This document shows positions 4,096 to 15,598 of a DNA stretch of 64,000 bases, one piece after another. The position numbers and the translations under genes are program-made. Source of the stretch: Euzebya rosea (GTDB lineage Bacteria > Actinomycetota > Nitriliruptoria > Euzebyales > Euzebyaceae); the NCBI RefSeq assembly GCF_003073135.1, contig NZ_PGDQ01000004.1:360363-424362 (forward strand), given 5' to 3'. Position 1 is the stretch's first letter; every line of letters starts with the position of its first letter. Under the pieces are notes generated by a model. The model did no database searches. It had not been told where the DNA came from and saw only the letters and a list, made by a program, of their open reading frames with translations.

Positions 4096-4738
4096 TGCCG
4101 GCAAGGTGCTGACCGTGTTCACGCGGGAGCTGGCAGTCGAGGCATCGGGCCGGCACCTGACCCGTGTCGCGGTCCCGTTCTCCCTCGCCGGCGTGCTGCT
4201 CGCCGGCCTGGCCTTCGGTCCGGCACCGTCGGTGCTGCAGGTGGTCGCCCCCGGCCTGCCCTGGCTGGTGGTGCTGCTCCTGGCCGCACCGTTGTCGCTC
4301 ACCGTCGCGGTGGCCGAGCGCGAGGACGGCTGCTGGGACCTGCTGCGCAGCCTGGCCGGCCCAGGCCCGCTGCTGTGGGGGAAGCTGGCGGCGATGTGGG
4401 TGTGGCTGACGGCCACCTGGACCGCCGCAGCTGGTCTCAGCATCATCGTGATGGGTGCCGGGATGGCGCTGTCATCGGTGCCTGCTGCCGCGCTCGGCAC
4501 CCTAGGCCTGTCGAGTGCCGTGGTCGTGTACGGCACCGCCGCCTCGGCAGCCGGCCGGACCGGCACGGGGCTGCTGACGGCGCTGGTCCTGCCGGCAGGG
4601 CTCCCGGCCCTCGTCGCGGGTACGCAGGCGAGCACGCCTGGCGTCGACGCCTCATCCTGGCTACTGCTGCTCCTGGCCTACGACCTTGCGGCCCTCGCCG
4701 TGGCGTGGGCCGTGTTCCCGACCCTGCTGGAGGAATGA
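4079..4738 (+). CDS. ccmB: Heme exporter membrane subunit CcmB
   Basis: 219 residues from GTG 4079; GTG 4085 or 4088 are equally possible starts. The N-terminus (KVLTVFTRELAVEA) matches the cytoplasmic start of CcmB, and about six hydrophobic segments follow. The gene overlaps ccmA by 17 bases and shares ATGA with ccmC. CcmB is the membrane partner of CcmA in cytochrome c maturation. Confidence 0.85.
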   Translation: MSVVADAGKVLTVFTRELAVEASGRHLTRVAVPFSLAGVLLAGLAFGPAPSVLQVVAPGLPWLVVLLLAAPLSLTVAVAEREDGCWDLLRSLAGPGPLLWGKLAAMWVWLTATWTAAAGLSIIVMGAGMALSSVPAAALGTLGLSSAVVVYGTAASAAGRTGTGLLTALVLPAGLPALVAGTQASTPGVDASSWLLLLLAYDLAALAVAWAVFPTLLEE

Positions 4739-5463
4739 CCGTGCGCATCCGACCCACCACCGTCCTGGGTGCTGCCGCCGCGGCGGCCGGTGGCGCCGCC
4801 GCAGTCCTCGGCCTCCTGCTCGCCCCTCCCGATGTCGTGCAGGGGCAGCCGCAACGGCTGATGTACGTCCACGTGCCGGCGGCATGGGTGGCCTACCTGG
4901 CCTTCGCGGGGGTGCTGGCCGCGAGCGTCGCCTACCTGCTGCGCCGCGACCTGCGGTGGGACCGACATGCTCGGTCGGCTGCGGAGTTGGGCGTCGGGCT
5001 GACTGCGCTGGCGATCGTGCTGGGAAGCCTCTGGGGCCGACCGGTGTGGGGAGTGTGGTGGACGTGGGAGCCCCGGTTGATCACCACCGTCGTCCTGCTG
5101 GTGGTGTACGTGGGCTACCTGGGGGTGCGGGGGCTGTCGGCGGACCCCCATGCCAGCGCACGACGGGCGGCGGTCGTCGGGATCGCGGCCTTCGTCAACG
5201 TCCCGATCGTGCACTACTCGGTGGTGTGGTGGCGGACCCTGCACCAGCCACCGACCGTGCTGCGGCCGGGGGGTCCGGCCGACTCCATCGAGCCGATGAT
5301 GCTAGCCGCGCTTCTGACCGCGGTGCTCGCCTTCACGCTTGCTGCGGTCTGGGTTCACCTCCGTCGCGTCGCGGTGCTCGCCCAGGACGACCCGGCCGTT
5401 CCCGCCGACGACGACATGCCACGACCACTGGAGCTGACCGTGACCGCGAGGACAAGCCGATGA
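4735..5463 (+). CDS. ccmC: Cytochrome c maturation protein CcmC (heme handling)
   Basis: 242 residues from ATG 4735 (ATGA overlap with ccmB). Six membrane segments are visible, plus the tryptophan-rich loop WGVWWTWEPRL and flanking His residues (VHVPAAW; PIVHYSVVWWRTLHQ) that bind heme in this family. CcmC loads heme onto the chaperone CcmE on the outer face of the membrane. The order C-D-E-F-G-H/I follows. Confidence 0.92.
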   Translation: MTVRIRPTTVLGAAAAAAGGAAAVLGLLLAPPDVVQGQPQRLMYVHVPAAWVAYLAFAGVLAASVAYLLRRDLRWDRHARSAAELGVGLTALAIVLGSLWGRPVWGVWWTWEPRLITTVVLLVVYVGYLGVRGLSADPHASARRAAVVGIAAFVNVPIVHYSVVWWRTLHQPPTVLRPGGPADSIEPMMLAALLTAVLAFTLAAVWVHLRRVAVLAQDDPAVPADDDMPRPLELTVTARTSR

Positions 5464-5558
5464 GCGACGGATGGGGCTGGGTGGTGGTCGGCTACGTGCT
5501 GACCGTGCTGGTGTGGGCCGGCTACGCGTGGTGGAGCGGCCGGGGGTTGGACCGATGA
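5460..5558 (+). CDS. ccmD: CcmD-like small membrane protein
   Basis: 32 residues, with both ends overlapping neighbours by four bases (ATGA at 5460 and at 5555). One transmembrane helix (WVVVGYVLTVLVWAGYAWW) and a short basic tail. Size, topology and position between ccmC and ccmE are those of CcmD, which stabilises the CcmC-CcmE complex. Sequence is poorly conserved in this family, so the call rests on context. Confidence 0.75.
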   Translation: MSDGWGWVVVGYVLTVLVWAGYAWWSGRGLDR

Positions 5559-5953
5559 GGCTGGCCCGACCGCGCACGCGGCTGCTGGTCGTCGCGGTCA
5601 CCGCGCTCGCCGCGATCGGCCTGCTGGCCACGAGCGGACTGGACGACAGCCTGGTGTACTACCGGAGCCCGGCAGAGGCCGCGTCGCTCTCCGCAGCCGA
5701 CGGACGCCTGCGCTTGGGCGGTCTGGTGCAGCCGGGCTCGGTCGTCCGCGACGGCGAGGCGGTCCGGTTCGTGCTGACCGACGGCGTCGCCGACGTGGAC
5801 GTGGTGCACCTCGGTGATCCGCCCGGCGTGTTCCAGGAGGGCCAGGGCGCACTGGTCGAGGGTGCCTTCGACGGTGACGGGGCCTTCCGCTCCGACCTGC
5901 TGATCGTCAAGCACTCCAACGAGTACGAGGCCGCATCCGAGGCTCGCCCGTGA
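5555..5953 (+). CDS. ccmE: Heme chaperone CcmE
   Basis: 132 residues from ATG 5555. One N-terminal membrane anchor is followed by an OB-fold domain (LRLGGLVQPGSVVR, VRFVLTDG, LVEGAFDGDGAFRSDLLIVKHSNEY). The KHSNEY segment matches the KHDExY heme-attachment motif, so the covalent heme ligand is His, as in the proteobacterial type, and not the Cys variant. It overlaps ccmD and ccmF. Confidence 0.92.
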   Translation: MRLARPRTRLLVVAVTALAAIGLLATSGLDDSLVYYRSPAEAASLSAADGRLRLGGLVQPGSVVRDGEAVRFVLTDGVADVDVVHLGDPPGVFQEGQGALVEGAFDGDGAFRSDLLIVKHSNEYEAASEARP

Positions 5954-7944
5954 ACAGCCTCCTCGGAACCGCCGCGCTGTCGCTCGGCTTCGTCACGTCG
6001 CTGGCTGCGACGGGATGGTGGGTGCTGAGCGTGCGCCGCCCCGAGCTCGCGCCGCGGGCGAAGCGCCTGACCGCGGTGATGGCCGTCGGGGCGGCGATGG
6101 CGTGCGCCGTGCTGGTGTGGGCGCTGGTCACCCACGACTTCAGCGTCCGCTACGTCGCGGAGAACGGCGCCCGCGCCGTGCCGCTCTACTACACCGTCAT
6201 CAGCCTGTGGGCGGCGCTGGAGGGCTCGCTGCTGCTGTGGCTGCTGGTGCTGTCGGGCTATGCGGTGCTGGTGATGCGCCGCGTCCACCCCCGGGCGGCA
6301 GCGCTGCACCCCTGGGTGATGGCGGTCATCTGCGGCTCTGCCGTGTTCTTCTTCGGGTTGGCGCTGTTCGCCGGAAACGCCTTCCAGGTGGTCTCGCCCG
6401 TGCCCGCGGATGGTCCCGGTCCCAACCCGTTGCTGCAGGACCACCCGCTGATGGGTGTTCACCCACCGCTGCTGTATCTCGGCTACATCGGCCTGACGGT
6501 GCCGTTCGCATACGCCGTGGCGGCGCTGATCACAGGGCAGACGGGCAGAGGTTGGCTGGTTGTGACCCGCCGCTGGACGCTCACCGCGTGGACGTTCCTG
6601 ACCGCGGGGATCATGCTCGGCGCCTGGTGGTCCTACGAGGTCCTCGGCTGGGGTGGCTACTGGGCGTGGGACCCGGTCGAGAACGCCTCGATCCTGCCGT
6701 GGTTCACCGCCACCGCGCTGCTGCACTCCGTCATGGTGCAGGAACGGCGGGCCACGCTGCGGGTGTGGAACCTCTCCCTGGCTGCCGCGACGTACCTGCT
6801 GGTCATCCTCGGCACCTTCCTGACACGAAGCGGCGTCGTCGCCAGCGTCCATGCATTCTCGCAGTCCGCGATCGGCCCGGCGCTGCTGGGCTTCTTCGCC
6901 TTCGTGCTGGTTAGCGTGGTCGCGCTGCTGATCTGGCGTTCCGACCGCCTCGGCCCCGTCGACCGGATCGACGCCGGCGCGTCGCGGGAGGCGGTGTTCC
7001 TGGGCAACAACGTCATCCTCGTCGGACTGGCCGTCACCGTGCTCATCGGCACCGTCTTCCCGCTGCTGGTGGAGGCCGTGAACGGAGAACGGGTGAGCGT
7101 CGGCGCGCCCTACTTCGACCGCATGGCGATCCCCCTCGCCCTCGCGATGCTCGTGCTCATGGGCGTCGGACCGCTGGTTCCTTGGGGGCTGGCTGACCCC
7201 CGAGCGCTCGCCCGGCGGCTGGCGGTGCCCTCCGCGCTCGGTCTGCTCACCATCGCCGCGCTCGGTCTGTCCGGCCGGAAGGGCGTCGCGCCGCTGGTCA
7301 CCATCGGCGTCGGCGTCTTCGTGCTGGCCACGATCGTCGACCGAGTCGTGACCGGATGGCAGTCAACCCGGGCAACGACCGGTCAACCCAGCCTGCCGGC
7401 CCTCTGGACGACCCTCGCCCGCCGCCGCCGTCTGTACGGCGGCCTGCTGACCCACGCGGGCGTCGTGCTCGCCGCGGTGGCGATCGCGGCGTCGTCCAGC
7501 TACAGCATCGACGGACAGCAGACGCTGGCCATCGGCGAGTCCTTCGTCGTGGGTGACCACACCGTGACGTTGGAGGGCATCACGCCACAGCGCACCGAGC
7601 GCAAGATGACCATCAGCATCCAGGTGGCGATCGCCGACGGGGACCGCGCTCTCGGCGTCTACGAGCCCGCGCTGAGCTTCTACCCCGCGTCCGTGCAGGC
7701 CATCGGCACGCCGTCGGTGCGGACCGGGCTCGCCGAGGATGCGTACCTGCTGCTGTCATCGGTCAACGACGACCGCACCGAGGCCACGGTCCGGCTGATC
7801 ATCAGCCCGCTGGTGCTGTGGCTGTGGGTCTCCGCAGGCGTCATGGTCACAGGCGCGGCGGTGGCAGCCTGGCCCGACCGGCGGCGTCGCCACGACGGTG
7901 CGGCGGTGGTCGATCAGCCAGCCGCGACGACGGTGGACGCATGA
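5950..7944 (+). CDS. ccmF: Heme lyase subunit CcmF
   Basis: 664 residues from GTG 5950. Polytopic, with the WWD signature (GWGGYWAWDPVENASILPW) and conserved outer His residues (LMGVHPPLLY; LLHSVMVQ). A C-terminal periplasmic region follows residue 500. CcmF with CcmH and CcmI joins heme from CcmE to the reduced CxxCH of apocytochrome c. It overlaps ccmE and the following redoxin gene by four bases each. Confidence 0.95.
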   Translation: MNSLLGTAALSLGFVTSLAATGWWVLSVRRPELAPRAKRLTAVMAVGAAMACAVLVWALVTHDFSVRYVAENGARAVPLYYTVISLWAALEGSLLLWLLVLSGYAVLVMRRVHPRAAALHPWVMAVICGSAVFFFGLALFAGNAFQVVSPVPADGPGPNPLLQDHPLMGVHPPLLYLGYIGLTVPFAYAVAALITGQTGRGWLVVTRRWTLTAWTFLTAGIMLGAWWSYEVLGWGGYWAWDPVENASILPWFTATALLHSVMVQERRATLRVWNLSLAAATYLLVILGTFLTRSGVVASVHAFSQSAIGPALLGFFAFVLVSVVALLIWRSDRLGPVDRIDAGASREAVFLGNNVILVGLAVTVLIGTVFPLLVEAVNGERVSVGAPYFDRMAIPLALAMLVLMGVGPLVPWGLADPRALARRLAVPSALGLLTIAALGLSGRKGVAPLVTIGVGVFVLATIVDRVVTGWQSTRATTGQPSLPALWTTLARRRRLYGGLLTHAGVVLAAVAIAASSSYSIDGQQTLAIGESFVVGDHTVTLEGITPQRTERKMTISIQVAIADGDRALGVYEPALSFYPASVQAIGTPSVRTGLAEDAYLLLSSVNDDRTEATVRLIISPLVLWLWVSAGVMVTGAAVAAWPDRRRRHDGAAVVDQPAATTVDA

Positions 7945-8546
7945 CGTCGATGCTCCACACCTTCGGTGTCCACGATGCGGCCGACGATGATGCCCCGGAC
8001 GAAAGGCCGCGATGGCGTCGTCGGTGGCCGCTGCTGATCGTCGTGGTGCTCGTCGCCCTCGGAGCCGTCGGCGTGCTCGGCACCGGGTTCGGACGAGATC
8101 CGACCGTGGTCGACACCGTGCTCATGGACCGACCTGCCCCGCCGCTGTCCGGTCCGACGCTCGAGGGTGGCACCGTCGACATCGCCGAGTTCGCCGGTCA
8201 GGTCGTGGTGGTGAACGTGTGGGCGTCGTGGTGCGTGCCGTGCCGCCGCGAGCACCCGCTGCTGGTGCGGGCTGCTGAGGTTCTGGAACCCTTCGGGGTG
8301 CAGTTCATCGGCATCAACACCCAGGACTCCGAAGACGACGCCCGCGCCTTCCTGGAGGAGCGAGGAGCCTTCGGCTATCCGAGCGTCCTGGATCCTGATG
8401 GCCGCTGGGCGGTCGAGTGGGGAACCTTCGGTGTTCCCGAGACGTTCGTCATCGACGCCGACGGACGGATCCGCGCCAAGAAGATCGGTGAGCTCACCGA
8501 GGGCTGGATCGTGGAGGCCGTCGGCCCGCTGGTGGACACCGGATGA
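7941..8546 (+). CDS. ccmG: CcmG/DsbE-type thiol:disulfide oxidoreductase
   Basis: 201 residues from ATG 7941 (ATGA overlap with ccmF). A cytoplasmic N-terminus of about 30 residues and one membrane anchor are followed by a thioredoxin fold with WASWCVPCRREHP, cis-Pro region FGVPETFVID and the GIN/D insertion typical of TlpA/CcmG. It keeps apocytochrome cysteines reduced for heme attachment. Unlike the redoxin at 10213, both catalytic residues are ordinary Cys. Confidence 0.92.
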   Translation: MTSMLHTFGVHDAADDDAPDERPRWRRRWPLLIVVVLVALGAVGVLGTGFGRDPTVVDTVLMDRPAPPLSGPTLEGGTVDIAEFAGQVVVVNVWASWCVPCRREHPLLVRAAEVLEPFGVQFIGINTQDSEDDARAFLEERGAFGYPSVLDPDGRWAVEWGTFGVPETFVIDADGRIRAKKIGELTEGWIVEAVGPLVDTG

Positions 8547-9703
8547 CACGTGCGCGCCCTTCTGCGACGGCCCTGCGGCGGCTGCTGACCGTCGGGGCGT
8601 TCGTCGCGCTTGCCGCTGGGTCGGCACTGGGGCTGTGGCAGGCGCTCGACGCACCACCCGGCACCCCCCAGCAGCAGGCGACGACCATCGCCACGGGCCT
8701 GCGCTGCCCCACGTGCCAGGGCCTATCGGTCGCAGACTCCGCGGCACCGATCGCGAACAGCATGCGCGAGATCATCGCCGAGCAGCTGGCCGACGGGCGC
8801 ACGCCCGACGAAGTCCGCGGCTACTTCGTCGCCCGCTACGGCGAGTGGATCCTGCTGTCGCCGCGCACCGGCGGGCTCGGCTGGCTGGTGTGGTTCCTGC
8901 CCGTCGCGGCGGTCCTCGGCGGAACAGGCGCAGCGCTGTTGCAGACCAGGCGGCGTCCCACCGCGGTGTCCTCGGCGGACCTGGACCACGCTGTCGAGCT
9001 GGCCGACGGGTACGCCGCGGGTCGGTTGGCCCTGCCGCAGACGCCGGCGGGTGAGCGGCTCGAGGCGGCCCTCGAGCTCGCATCCGCGATCGCCGACGAC
9101 CGTGAGGACGCGTCCACCGGTGCACACCGGAACGGGATGATCCGCATCGCAGCCGCGCTGGCAGCGCAGCGTCGCGAGGCGACCACGCCGGTCATGGCAG
9201 GCTCGCGAGCGACGGCGGTGGCGCCGGCGACGGACGACCGCGCCGCGGATGGTGTTGTGCGACGCCGTGGCATGTCGTGGGCCGGGGGTGCTGCTGCGTT
9301 CGCTGCCGTGCTCGTCGGCCTGCTGGCCTTCAACCTGGCACCCCGAGGCGTAGGCGACCTCCCGACGGGCAATCTCCCCGATGTCGACAGCGGACCCAGT
9401 GCGACCGCGGAGCTCGATGCGTTGCGCGCCAGCGTCGAGCAGGATCCGTCGAACATCGCAGCGCGCCTGGACCTGGCCTCACAGCTGTTGCAGGCGGGCG
9501 ATGTCGGCGGCGCACAAGTCACAGCCCGAGCGGTTCTTGACCAGCAGCCTGATCACCCTGATGGGCTCCTGCTGCTGGGCCTGGCGCTGTTCACCGACGG
9601 CTCAGCGGTCGCGCCCCAGACGCTGCAGCGGTTCCTCGACGCCGCGCCCTCCGAGCACCCCGGCATCCCGCTCGCCCGATCGCTGCTGGATCCGCAGCAG
9701 TGA
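8543..9703 (+). CDS. ccmH: CcmH-CcmI fusion (cytochrome c maturation)
   Basis: 386 residues from ATG 8543. The N-terminal part is CcmH: one signal/anchor helix, the redox motif LRCPTCQGLSVADS and EIIAEQLADGRTPDEVRGYFVARYGEWILL. Then come two more membrane segments and a C-terminal TPR domain (ARLDLASQLLQAGD and following) as in CcmI, which binds apocytochrome. The two are one continuous frame here, as in several lineages. Coupled at both ends to its neighbours. Confidence 0.9.
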   Translation: MTRARPSATALRRLLTVGAFVALAAGSALGLWQALDAPPGTPQQQATTIATGLRCPTCQGLSVADSAAPIANSMREIIAEQLADGRTPDEVRGYFVARYGEWILLSPRTGGLGWLVWFLPVAAVLGGTGAALLQTRRRPTAVSSADLDHAVELADGYAAGRLALPQTPAGERLEAALELASAIADDREDASTGAHRNGMIRIAAALAAQRREATTPVMAGSRATAVAPATDDRAADGVVRRRGMSWAGGAAAFAAVLVGLLAFNLAPRGVGDLPTGNLPDVDSGPSATAELDALRASVEQDPSNIAARLDLASQLLQAGDVGGAQVTARAVLDQQPDHPDGLLLLGLALFTDGSAVAPQTLQRFLDAAPSEHPGIPLARSLLDPQQ

Positions 9704-10157: not shown

Positions 10158-10184
10158 GACTGCAGTGCTATCGTGTGTAGTAGT
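10158..10184 (+). promoter_or_regulatory. Possible promoter/BlaI-like operator of the seleno-redoxin gene
   Basis: GACTGCAGTG (10158-10167) and GTGTAGTAG (10175-10183) lie 30-55 bases before the TTG start at 10213. The arrangement resembles the dyad before the BlaI gene (GACTACAGTG and GTGTAGTAC at 1022-1059), with a shorter spacing. It may put the redoxin under the same repressor. Motif-level evidence only. Confidence 0.35.
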
Positions 10185-10212
10185 TCTGCGTCTGAGTAGG
10201 AGGGAGTTGTCG

Positions 10213-10794
10213 TTGGCCGTCAACCGTCGAGGACTGCGGCCGTCAGCGTCCATCGTCGCGATGGCGCTCATGGGGCTGCTCGCTGCCTGTGGCGGTGGTG
10301 ATGTCACCGATGCAGACGCTGCCGGGAACGCCCCAGAGGTCGCTAGCGAACAGGGACCCGTCGGGGCTGACGACCAAGGTGAGGCGGCGCAGCTGCTGTC
10401 CTTCACCGCATCAACCGTCTATGGTGATCAGTTCGAGGGGGCGGGTCTGCTCCGCCAGGACATCGCCATCTGGTTCTGGGCTCCGTGGTGACCGGTCTGC
10501 AACCGGGAAGCTCCCGATGTCGCGCAGGTTGCGCGGCAGCTCGATCAAGACGTGACGTTCCTCGGCGTGGCCGGTCAGGACTCGTTGGACAACATGCAGG
10601 CGTTCATCGACGAGTACAGCCTGCCGATGACGAACATCGCCGACCCTGACGGACGCCTTTCCGCGGCGCACTTCGAGATCCTCGGTCACTCCTCGTGGAT
10701 ATTCATCGATGGTGAGACGGGGGAGGTGACGCGGCACGTCGGGCCGCTGTCGCGCGAGGCGCTCGAGGAACGAGTGCAGGCGCTCGCCGCCTGA
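10213..10794 (+). CDS. Selenocysteine-containing TlpA-like redoxin lipoprotein (in-frame TGA at 10489)
   Basis: 193 residues if TGA 10489-10491 is read as selenocysteine. The TTG start has AGGAGGGAG six bases upstream. Residues 1-25 form a lipoprotein signal (LLAACGGG). The thioredoxin motif reads FWAPW-U-PVCNREAP: U93 sits where the first Cys of WCxxC belongs and C96 is intact. The frame continues without interruption through a normal thioredoxin fold (TFLGVAGQD, cis-Pro-like region HSSWIFIDGETG, C-terminal helix). Two hairpins suitable as a bacterial SECIS follow the TGA. Selenocysteine would lower the pKa and speed thiol-disulfide exchange. Neighbours are a ferric-reductase-like protein and a second Sec candidate, CcdA. 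The alternative, a nonsense mutation Cys to TGA, is unlikely given the second case nearby. Confidence 0.85.
10489..10535 (+). promoter_or_regulatory. UGA codon and candidate bacterial SECIS hairpins
   Basis: After TGA (10489-10491), CGGGA-AGC-TCCCG (10504-10516) forms a perfect 5-bp stem with its loop 17 bases after the codon. Then CGCGCA-GGT-TGCGCG (10521-10535) forms a perfect 6-bp stem whose GGU loop begins 35 bases after the codon. Bacterial SECIS elements need a hairpin just downstream of UGA with a G near the start of a small loop, so either could be used. The first matches the E. coli spacing better; the second has the better GGU loop. Confidence 0.65.
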
Positions 10795-10857: not shown

Positions 10858-11585
10858 ATGGCCAAGAAGACGATGCGGATCTCGGTGGCCCGGCACACGG
10901 CGGTTGCCGTGCTGGGCCTCATGCTGATCGCGGTGTTCTGGGCTTCCCGCCCGCAGTGGATCCCGAGATGCGTTTGTGGAAGTCCGTCGGTGATGGCTCG
11001 CTGATCCTGCTGCTGGCCACGCTGGCGATCGGTCCGCTGGCGAAGCTCTGGCGCCCGGCGGGTCGCGCGATTGTTTGGCGTCGAGAAGCGGGCATCTGGT
11101 TCGCGGTCCTGGCGGCGGTGCACGCGATCCTGATCCTCAACGGCTGGGCTCGCTGGTCGCTGAGCCGCCTGTTCGGCTTCGAGTTCGTGGCCCAGCTCGG
11201 TCGTGAGGCACGGATGGAGCCCGGTTTCGGGCTCGCCAACCTCCTGGGCATCGTCGCGCTGGTGTGGGGACTGGCGCTCGCAGCCACCTCGACCGACGCT
11301 GCCGTCCGCCGTCTTGGACCGGCCTCGTGGAAGTGGCTGCACAGCGCAGCCCAGGTCGTCTTCTACCTCGTGCTGCTCCACGTCGGCTACTACCTGTTCC
11401 TGCACTACACGCTGTCGTTCCACCGGATGCCGCCGGAGCCAGACTGGTTCAGGATCCCCTTCGTTCTGCTCGGGCTGTGCGTGGTGGGGCTGCAGATGGC
11501 TGCGTTCGTCCACACGGTCCGACGTCGGAAGACGGCGCGGTCGTCCTCGCGTTCTTCGCGCGTCGCTGGCAAGGCAGCCTCCTGA
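10858..11585 (+). CDS. Ferric-reductase-like (MsrQ/YedZ-type) heme b membrane protein, probable frameshift near 10957
   Basis: The long frame (GTG 10956 to 11585) gives DPEMRLWKSVGDGSLILLLATLAIGPLAKLW and about five more membrane segments with paired His residues (AVHAIL, KWLHSAAQ, LLHVGYYLFLH), as in ferric-reductase-like transmembrane proteins. A matching first helix lies in another frame from ATG 10858 (MAKKTMRISVARHTAVAVLG, ending FWASRPQW). Restoring one G in the TGGATCC at 10957-10963 would join them in one frame. Either a single-base deletion broke the gene, or the shorter GTG-started protein is made. It sits between the two selenoprotein candidates and could pass electrons from the quinone pool to the redoxin. 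Confidence 0.65.
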
Positions 11586-11594
11586 CGAGGGGCG

Positions 11595-12467
11595 CTAGAC
11601 AGGGAAGATCTGGGCGAAGAAGTCGGCGAAGACCGCGAGGGCGATGAACCAGAGGCCGACGGCAATCAGCACGGCACCTCCCCACCGCTTGATCTTCGGA
11701 GCGGTCGCCTTGATCCGCTCGACGGTAAGTTCCTGCGCACGGGACACGGTGAACGCCGCGGTGAACATCAGCGCCAGGATCACGATCGCGGCGAGCCCGA
11801 AGGCCGTTGTGGCGACCCCGGAGCCACCGGTGACGAGAGCTTGCCCGGCCAGACCGGCCAGGATCGGCCCAGTTCACCCGAAGCCGGCGGCCAGGTAGAA
11901 GAAGCCGAACGCCGTGAACCCGGCGACGGGGTGCTGCCGCCGCAGCACGGCTTGCTTCTTGCTGAGATGCTTCGTGGCCCGCTCCACCGCCCGGAACGGC
12001 GAGTCCGCGAGGACACCGATCTGGACGAGGCCGAGCAGCACCAGGGCTGCGCCGACGACGACCCGCAGCGTGATGCCGACGGTGCTGGTGAACGTCACGC
12101 TCTCCGCCAGCGCACTTCCACCCAGACCGATCAACACTCCCAGCGCCAGAAGGAACAGCGCAGCGCCCCCAGCCATGGCTGCGGCGAACACCGCCGGGCG
12201 GTGCTCCTCGCGATCTTCTCCGCCGACCCGGCGGGACAGCAGCGTGACCAGCAGCGGGAAGGAGCACGGCGCGAAGAACGATGCGATGCCTGCGCCCGCG
12301 GCCAGCACCAGCAGGCCAGCGCCCTCCAGTGCGGGAAGATCGAACCGGGGGTACAGCTCGTAGCCCGCGTATCCCGCCAGCGCCACCACGAGTAACCCTG
12401 CCGTCAAGAGCGCATAGCGGGACCACGAACTCCTCTCACCCGTCTCCGTGCCTTCTCGATCCGTCAT
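11595..12467 (-). CDS. ccdA: Selenocysteine-containing CcdA/DsbD-type thiol transporter (in-frame TGA at 11876-11874)
   Basis: 290 residues with the TGA read as Sec198. CcdA proteins have six to eight helices and two catalytic cysteines, one in helix 1 and one in helix 4. Here the first is present (SFFAPCSFPLL, Cys68), and the TGA falls exactly at the second (FYLAAGFG-U-TGPILAGL). The frame continues past it to a normal C-terminus with two more helices and the tail ALAVFADFFAQIFPV. A hairpin with loop GGTCT begins 12 bases after the TGA. ATG 12467 starts the conserved part; ATG 12485 is an alternative. The protein would move reducing equivalents from cytoplasmic thioredoxin to outer redoxins. 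It is convergent with the ferric-reductase-like gene. Confidence 0.88.
11844..11876 (-). promoter_or_regulatory. UGA codon and SECIS-like hairpin in ccdA
   Basis: On the minus strand the TGA (11876-11874) is followed by CCTGGCC-GGTCT-GGCCGGG (11862-11844): a 7-bp stem with one T-G pair and a five-base loop starting 18 bases after the codon. The loop GGUCU and the 18-base spacing are, to my recollection, those of the E. coli fdhF SECIS recognised by SelB. This is the strongest SECIS-like element in the window. Confidence 0.8.
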
Positions 12468-12639
12468 GTGGCACACCGTAGACATTCCAGTCGACTGAAG
12501 GTCAAGCGGCGACCACGCCGGTGCTAGTGTGCGCCGGAGACGTCCGCCCAGCGGGCGAGGGTCCTCAGACGGGTTTAGCTGGCACGGACATGCCTGGAGC
12601 GATGTGCGAACAAGAGACCGTCCCGAGGGTCTGTTCGCG

Positions 12640-14998: not shown

Positions 14999-15598
14999 TC
15001 AACTCCTCATCGTGATCGGAACGTGGGCCTCCGGGTCTGTCGCCATCGCGGCGCGCGCCGCGTCCGAATCGCCGGCGCCACCGCCGACCTCCACATCGGG
15101 CTGGACCGGCGCGGCAGCAGGCGCGCCCTGGGTGAGCGCGCCAGTCTTGCCCAGGATGATGGCGTCCAGCCGCTGCGCGGTCTCCAACGCCTCGGCGGAG
15201 CGGATCAGGATGCCTGTGGTGCGCCCTCCTGGGTGCCTACCATCATCGAGAGCGGCGCGGCCAGCCCCAGCTGGGCCGAACTCCCCATGGCGGTCTGGGG
15301 TCATCTCTATAGTTGTGCGGACGTGGGCGGGTAGCAAGGCGTTGATCCCGAAATCGCTGAAGACCACCCGGGACATGCAGTCCCCCGCCTCCTGCCAGTC
15401 GAAGGCAAGCCGCAGCGGCACCCCCTGCTGCATCTCGATCCGATCAGGGGCGTAGCCGCCCTCGATGGTGAGGGTGACCTCTTGGACGCCGCCACGCAAC
15501 GTGGCGCGGCTGGCGTCCGGGCTGGCGAAGAAGAACCGCAGCAGCCCGGTGCTGCGAGCCACCGCGCCGAGCAGGATGATGACATCCATGCGCGTCAC
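14999..15598 (-). pseudogene. Cupredoxin domain fused to a copper-ATPase relic with lost phosphorylation site
   Basis: 199 residues from GTG 15598 (AGGAGG nine bases upstream). Residues 5-105 are a membrane-anchored cupredoxin-like domain of the kind found at the N-terminus of some copper ATPases (EVTLTIEGGYAPDRIEM, GDCMSRVVFSDFGI, EMTPDRHGEFG). The expected ACGMxxxHG end is gone. The frame then jumps to TGILIRSAEALETAQRLDAI-ILGKTGALTQG, the P-type ATPase phosphorylation loop with DKTGT changed to GKTGA. All membrane helices between are deleted. The catalytic Asp is absent, so no pump activity is possible; a residual copper-binding role is conceivable. Confidence 0.75.

Follow-up and report, generated by a model that had tools for sequence, protein, structure and literature searches.

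A 2026 inventory lists 119 families of prokaryotic selenoproteins, including MerT-type, SO_0444, and UxxU metal selenoproteins and TsoB (PMC13188914). TsoB, a rhodanese/DsbD fusion-like protein (NF045694), is the only DsbD-related selenoprotein among them, and mercury transport offers a precedent for selenocysteine (Sec), in a putative mercuric transport protein that contains it (PF02411, C/SxxU; PMC13188914). CcdA-type "mercury transporters" of actinomycetes are listed for Gordonia and Mycobacterium (OBA35129 and BAX98527; PMC12195606, Table 4). A CcdA protein with Sec at the second catalytic cysteine is absent from the 119 families (PMC13188914), and a literature search pairing selenoprotein with CcdA or with "cytochrome c biogenesis protein" found no description of one in the titles and passages covered; these took in few subscription papers, and absence from them is not proof.

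Here we analyze a candidate for such a protein, encoded by a gene that we call ccdA-U, in the window, the whole 64,000-nucleotide stretch of Euzebya rosea DNA under study. The PC of the first motif and the C(x)GP of the second motif of the CcdA/DsbD transmembrane domain (DsbD_TM; PF02683) align with ccdA-U, which differs in its predicted Sec in place of the second Cys, its separate clade, its frequent fusion to HMA domains, its MerR-type promoter, and the lack of a cytochrome operon around it. TsoB differs from ccdA-U in its rhodanese fusion and its two Sec residues in a UxxxxU motif, and neither the window protein nor its relative in genome G001 matched NF045694 at 0.001. The MerT/CopZ fusion-like heavy metal transport selenoproteins (NF045683) resemble the ccdA-U relatives in joining a Sec-containing membrane metal protein to HMA/CopZ, but their membrane part is MerT, not DsbD_TM; the ccdA-U proteins searched had no match to PF02411 (MerT), and only the HMA part of the relatives matched NF045683. 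The Gordonia and Mycobacterium proteins, compared by description only, are likewise CcdA type, from actinomycetes, and annotated as mercury transport, but the table reports no selenocysteine in them (PMC12195606).

An in-frame TGA at the second catalytic cysteine

The translation of ccdA-U contains exactly one TGA, at residue 198 in the context FFYLAAGFG-U-TGPILAGLA, retains the first catalytic Cys (FFAPCSF), and closes at a TAG (Table 1). This is the frame that the initial annotation had proposed, to which we add the strand. The window protein scored 28.1 bits against PF02683, just above the curated cutoff of 27.1, and the G001 relative scored 27.9 bits; relatives from G015, G306 (copy G306b), and G054 had no PF02683 match at 0.001. 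Both catalytic columns are Cys in every ordinary CcdA aligned (21 of 21, of the GWTPCIGP and SLGCTLP types), and the TGA therefore falls exactly on the second catalytic Cys. The catalytic pair of ccdA-U would thus consist of a retained first Cys and a Sec in the column of the second. An AlphaFold model built from a two-row alignment only (the window protein and L052) had a mean pLDDT of 43, too poor for use. A PDB sequence search and a plasmid search returned no match.

Table 1. Positions of ccdA-U, its predicted signals, and nearby genes in the window
Feature	Position	Strand	Basis
ccdA-U, CcdA/DsbD_TM-type membrane protein, 290 aa with predicted Sec198	11595..12467	-	TGA-read-through translation; PF02683; alignment of relatives
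TGA codon 198, predicted to be read as Sec, second catalytic Cys column	11874..11876	-	Relatives and ordinary CcdAs
Cys68 codon, first catalytic Cys (FFAPCSFPLL)	12264..12266	-	Translation; Cys in 21/21 ordinary CcdAs
Putative SECIS hairpin, 7-bp stem, loop GGUCU at 11855-11851, 18 nt 3' of TGA	11844..11862	-	Fold; invariant codons; bSECIS model
Predicted MerR-family-type promoter, TTGACC-19 bp dyad-TACGGT	12475..12505	-	Pattern search of window and relatives
trx-U, thioredoxin/TlpA-like, FWAPW-U-PVC (FWAPW-U-PVCNREAP), TGA (probable Sec) at 10489-10491, start codon uncertain	10165..10794	+	Translation; Pfam AhpC-TSA/Redoxin
Ferric-reductase-like transmembrane protein, neighbor (context only)	10956..11585	+	PF01794, 5.4e-11

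Searches of the class and the phylum found ccdA-U in eleven further genomes, one of which is the public MAG Actinomycetota bacterium isolate 0813_bin3. The TGA occupies the same column in all 14 sequences that span the codon (12 genomes), where TAA and TAG never occur, and the G107 protein, the nearest Cys homologue at 33% identity, has TGC there. For a same-genus pair, dN/dS downstream of the TGA was 0.109/0.57, and the two G306 copies gave 0.092/1.06; the stretch before the TGA was similar. These values indicate purifying selection on the coding sequence that follows the TGA. Neither a sequencing error nor a plain stop codon can explain a gene in which a TGA is conserved and the sequence beyond it is under such selection.

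We also detected decayed copies of ccdA-U, at L058:1443-2265 (G001), L067:3985-4446 (G061), and L108:1501-1698 (G009). The second G001 copy is frameshifted, while the G061 copy and the second G009 fragment carry a TAG. These copies suggest turnover of such genes. Another DsbD_TM match with a TGA, at L146 in G001, looked like a decayed gene and was rejected as a selenoprotein.

Selenocysteine machinery, the hairpin, and a second candidate gene

The Euzebya rosea genome encodes selA, selB, selD, and tRNA-Sec, the machinery on which the proposal in the initial annotation depended; the tRNA-Sec scored 65 bits against a cutoff of 47. Across genomes that carry the ccdA-U family or its nearest kin, selA was above the cutoff in 12 of 14, and the two selA-negative genomes are only 74% and 83% complete.

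The stretch after the TGA folds into a hairpin with a 5-nt loop (CCUGGCC-GGUCU-GGCCGGG, -12.6 kcal/mol). It begins 11 bases after the codon rather than the 12 first counted, while the 7-bp stem and the loop start at 18 bases were confirmed in the fold. The likeness to E. coli fdhF noted in the initial annotation is borne out by the fdhF sequence (a query confirmed as fdhF in 5,368 of 5,426 E. coli genomes), in which a GGUCU loop also starts 18 nt after the UGA; the stem sequences of the two hairpins are different. The fdhF stem has a bulged U.

The window hairpin fits the bacterial SECIS model in all four of the features quoted in PMC13188914. The energy limit of that model was reached by 10 of the 14 sequences; two missed it by at most 0.3, and G199 and G306b were weaker. 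On its own the hairpin is weak evidence, because 15% of the 1,396 TGA triplets in the window fit the same model, and 38 of them are followed by a stem of equal or greater stability. Its fold was no better than that of shuffled sequences (z, 0.37), and no Rfam SECIS family scored above threshold in the window. No compensatory base changes in the stem were found among the relatives, and pair covariation does not by itself support the hairpin. Changes in the outer stem are one-sided, G306b and G199 have only a weak stem, and the stem is kept mainly through invariance.

Conservation of the TGA and the hairpin among relatives is what lifts the observation above chance. Of 57 conserved degenerate columns, just three show one and the same codon throughout the 14 sequences: +6 GCC, +7 GGT, and +8 CTG, the codons that form the hairpin loop. 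GGT accounts for just 16% of Gly codons in ccdA-U genes. This codon-level invariance is strong evidence for a SECIS element.

Taken with the comparative evidence, the SelA/SelB/SelD/tRNA-Sec set and the fdhF-type hairpin indicate that UGA198 is read as Sec, and we consider selenocysteine at this codon nearly certain on these sequence grounds. An error in the sequence, or a genuine stop at 11874-11876 in a pseudogene, could draw on the decayed copies in some relatives (the second G001 copy, G061, and the second G009 fragment), but it has to contend with a TGA shared by 14 sequences (12 genomes), purifying selection beyond it, SECIS codons that do not vary, and an encoded Sec machinery. It is refuted for the family, and we assign it practically no probability. 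Alternatively, the TGA might be read through by other means, such as a Trp suppressor or a near-cognate tRNA, given that the frame is open under any code in which TGA specifies a residue. That explanation seems to us very improbable, as the column is Cys in all homologues without TGA, tRNA-Sec and SelA/SelB are encoded, and the hairpin codons are frozen.

Approximately 1 kb from ccdA-U lies trx-U. Its TGA is retained across 16 related sequences, which have a different conserved hairpin (CGGGAGGCUCCCG). Thioredoxin-like selenoproteins of the UxxC type are a known kind, and trx-U is a probable second selenoprotein gene. A trx-U paralogue with one in-frame TGA, on another contig of the same genome (G000:C9:147797-148339), is probably a third.

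Control region, gene neighbors, and the ordinary CcdA

A search for the pattern TTGAC(A/C)-19/20 bp dyad TTC..TGGAA-TA(C/G) returned one match in the window, where none was expected by chance. In most relatives the same element precedes ccdA-U or its operon, whereas almost none of the other loci compared contains it. MerR-family activators have a known signature, a dyad combined with distorted 19/20-bp spacing, and the dyad CCTTCC..GGAAGG presumably resembles the sites of CueR (copper). Because the ATG of ccdA-U lies just 7 nt downstream of the -10 element, its mRNA is probably leaderless.

The relatives of ccdA-U are accompanied by genes related to metals. An HMA domain is fused N-terminally in G001, G015, G054, and G306b, and by eye in G022; in G306a and G199 it is a separate upstream open reading frame (ORF), followed in G199, after ccdA-U, by a P-type ATPase. 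MerR-family genes adjoin or lie close to ccdA-U in G001, G009, G022, G119, and G228 and, from inspection of the sequence, in G306. In G050, the promoter is followed by a DF-family thioredoxin-like gene, MerB, and ccdA-U, in that order, and a DF-family protein and MerR are neighbors of ccdA-U in G009. The Cys version in G107 is preceded by a C-terminal fragment of MerA and a MerR gene. True MerA was above the cutoff in only 2 of 14 genomes, under a model that separates MerA from related oxidoreductases too poorly for genome-wide calls of mer operons. The MerA and MerB neighbors suggest mercury; set against the CueR-like dyad, they leave both copper and mercury as candidates. In the window, ccdA-U has the promoter without an HMA domain or an adjacent regulator, and a search of the whole window revealed no MerR or HMA motif.

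Several further observations concern genes of these kinds. The DF-family (seleno)protein homologue of the G009 ccdA-U operon, L062:1446-1739 (minus strand), has Cys and scored 63.2 bits against the NF049942 cutoff of 70; a matching homologue with Cys was seen by sequence inspection in L061 (G050), upstream of MerB. G050 also encodes a different HMA/CcdA-like fusion, L128:1456-2529 (minus strand), whose second motif is CPSCTP and which lacks the first Cys; the same promoter element and two MerR-type ORFs lie nearby. In G107, a MerA-like oxidoreductase gene with one in-frame TGA (G107:C16:200235-201584) directly follows a true MerA gene and is a possible selenoprotein gene. Within the window, positions 14999-15598 (minus strand) hold a cupredoxin-like domain and then, by eye, a P-type ATPase-like stretch, apparently what is left of a copper gene.

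Separate from the ordinary CcdAs stands a clade (support, 100/99) of the Sec proteins together with the G107 protein, whose long branch makes its exact position there uncertain. The Euzebya rosea genome encodes three other DsbD_TM proteins. An ordinary cytochrome-type CcdA (GWVPCIGP) is encoded beside Ccm genes at G000:C4:359268-359909, approximately 0.5 kb before the window start. A cytochrome c maturation cluster occupies approximately positions 4375-9703 of the window, with CcmC/E/F-like genes recognized by sequence inspection and TlpA-like and CcmH genes by Pfam. The separate clade and the ordinary CcdA beside the Ccm genes indicate that ccdA-U is a specialized paralogue, not the cytochrome c CcdA. 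The assignment in the initial annotation stands as to the family and the catalytic column; the gene itself belongs to a distinct, metal-linked paralogue family.

A possible Cys/Sec relay for soft metals

On the evidence of the promoter and the neighbors, a metal-linked membrane function of some kind is likely for ccdA-U. In the mechanism that we propose, Sec replaces the second of two membrane Cys residues in a branch of CcdA/DsbD_TM, and a MerR-family metal sensor would switch on transcription of a leaderless mRNA at the dyad promoter with its 19/20-bp spacing. In most relatives, the soft ion, either Hg(II) or Cu(I), would first be bound by an HMA domain, N-terminal or adjacent (with a motif such as IHCDGC), and then exchanged with the intramembrane Cys68/Sec198 pair. 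This pair would carry it through the membrane to the next step, MerA/MerB or an efflux ATPase. The fusion to HMA speaks for such a handover between HMA and the Cys/Sec pair, by analogy with MerP and MerT. Selenolate is a better ligand and a faster exchanger than thiolate for Hg(II) and Cu(I). The advantage of Sec here could lie in the deprotonated state of selenolate at neutral pH, its tighter binding of soft metals, and its faster exchange.

The main alternative hypothesis is that ccdA-U is an electron (thiol/selenol) relay like ordinary CcdA, which would carry reducing equivalents from cytosolic thioredoxin to extracytoplasmic Trx-U and TlpA/DsbE-like proteins for repair or reduction under metal stress or for cytochrome c maturation. 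The CcdA family and its two conserved catalytic positions fit a relay of this kind, as do the thioredoxin-like Sec protein predicted nearby, the TlpA-like and CcmH genes in the window, and the thioredoxin-like DF-family gene in the G050 and G009 operons. However, the ordinary GWVPCIGP protein, encoded next to the Ccm genes and just beyond the window, already fills the cytochrome role, and the relatives of ccdA-U adjoin HMA, MerR, MerB, or P-type ATPase genes, not cytochrome genes. We regard the electron relay as possible, if rather doubtful. The membrane thiol transporter suggested by the initial annotation is, for a family of metal-linked paralogues, one of two live options.

Whether ccdA-U is a metal conduit rather than an electron relay is, in our judgment, an evenly balanced question. 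We favor, with moderate confidence, the overall reading of a Sec-CcdA branch that is switched by MerR and acts in the membrane as a metal-induced Cys/Sec relay of soft metals. The more specific proposal, a new family of CcdA-type, often HMA-fused selenoproteins that form a conduit for soft toxic metals through an intramembrane Cys/Sec pair and are unrelated to MerT, is put forward tentatively, at slightly less than an even chance.

As read from these genomes, a group of actinobacteria appears to make a Sec-containing CcdA that its control region and neighbors link to toxic metals such as mercury or copper. CcdA/DsbD_TM, a major bacterial route for thiol electrons across the membrane, would thereby enter the list of selenoprotein families, with a transmembrane catalytic site that contains Sec, and selenium would be tied to metal resistance in actinobacteria. 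Ordinary annotation splits such genes into two broken pieces, so further members may be hidden. The natural Sec/Cys pairs, in which G107 supplies the Cys form, would permit a direct test of what selenium contributes to a membrane relay.
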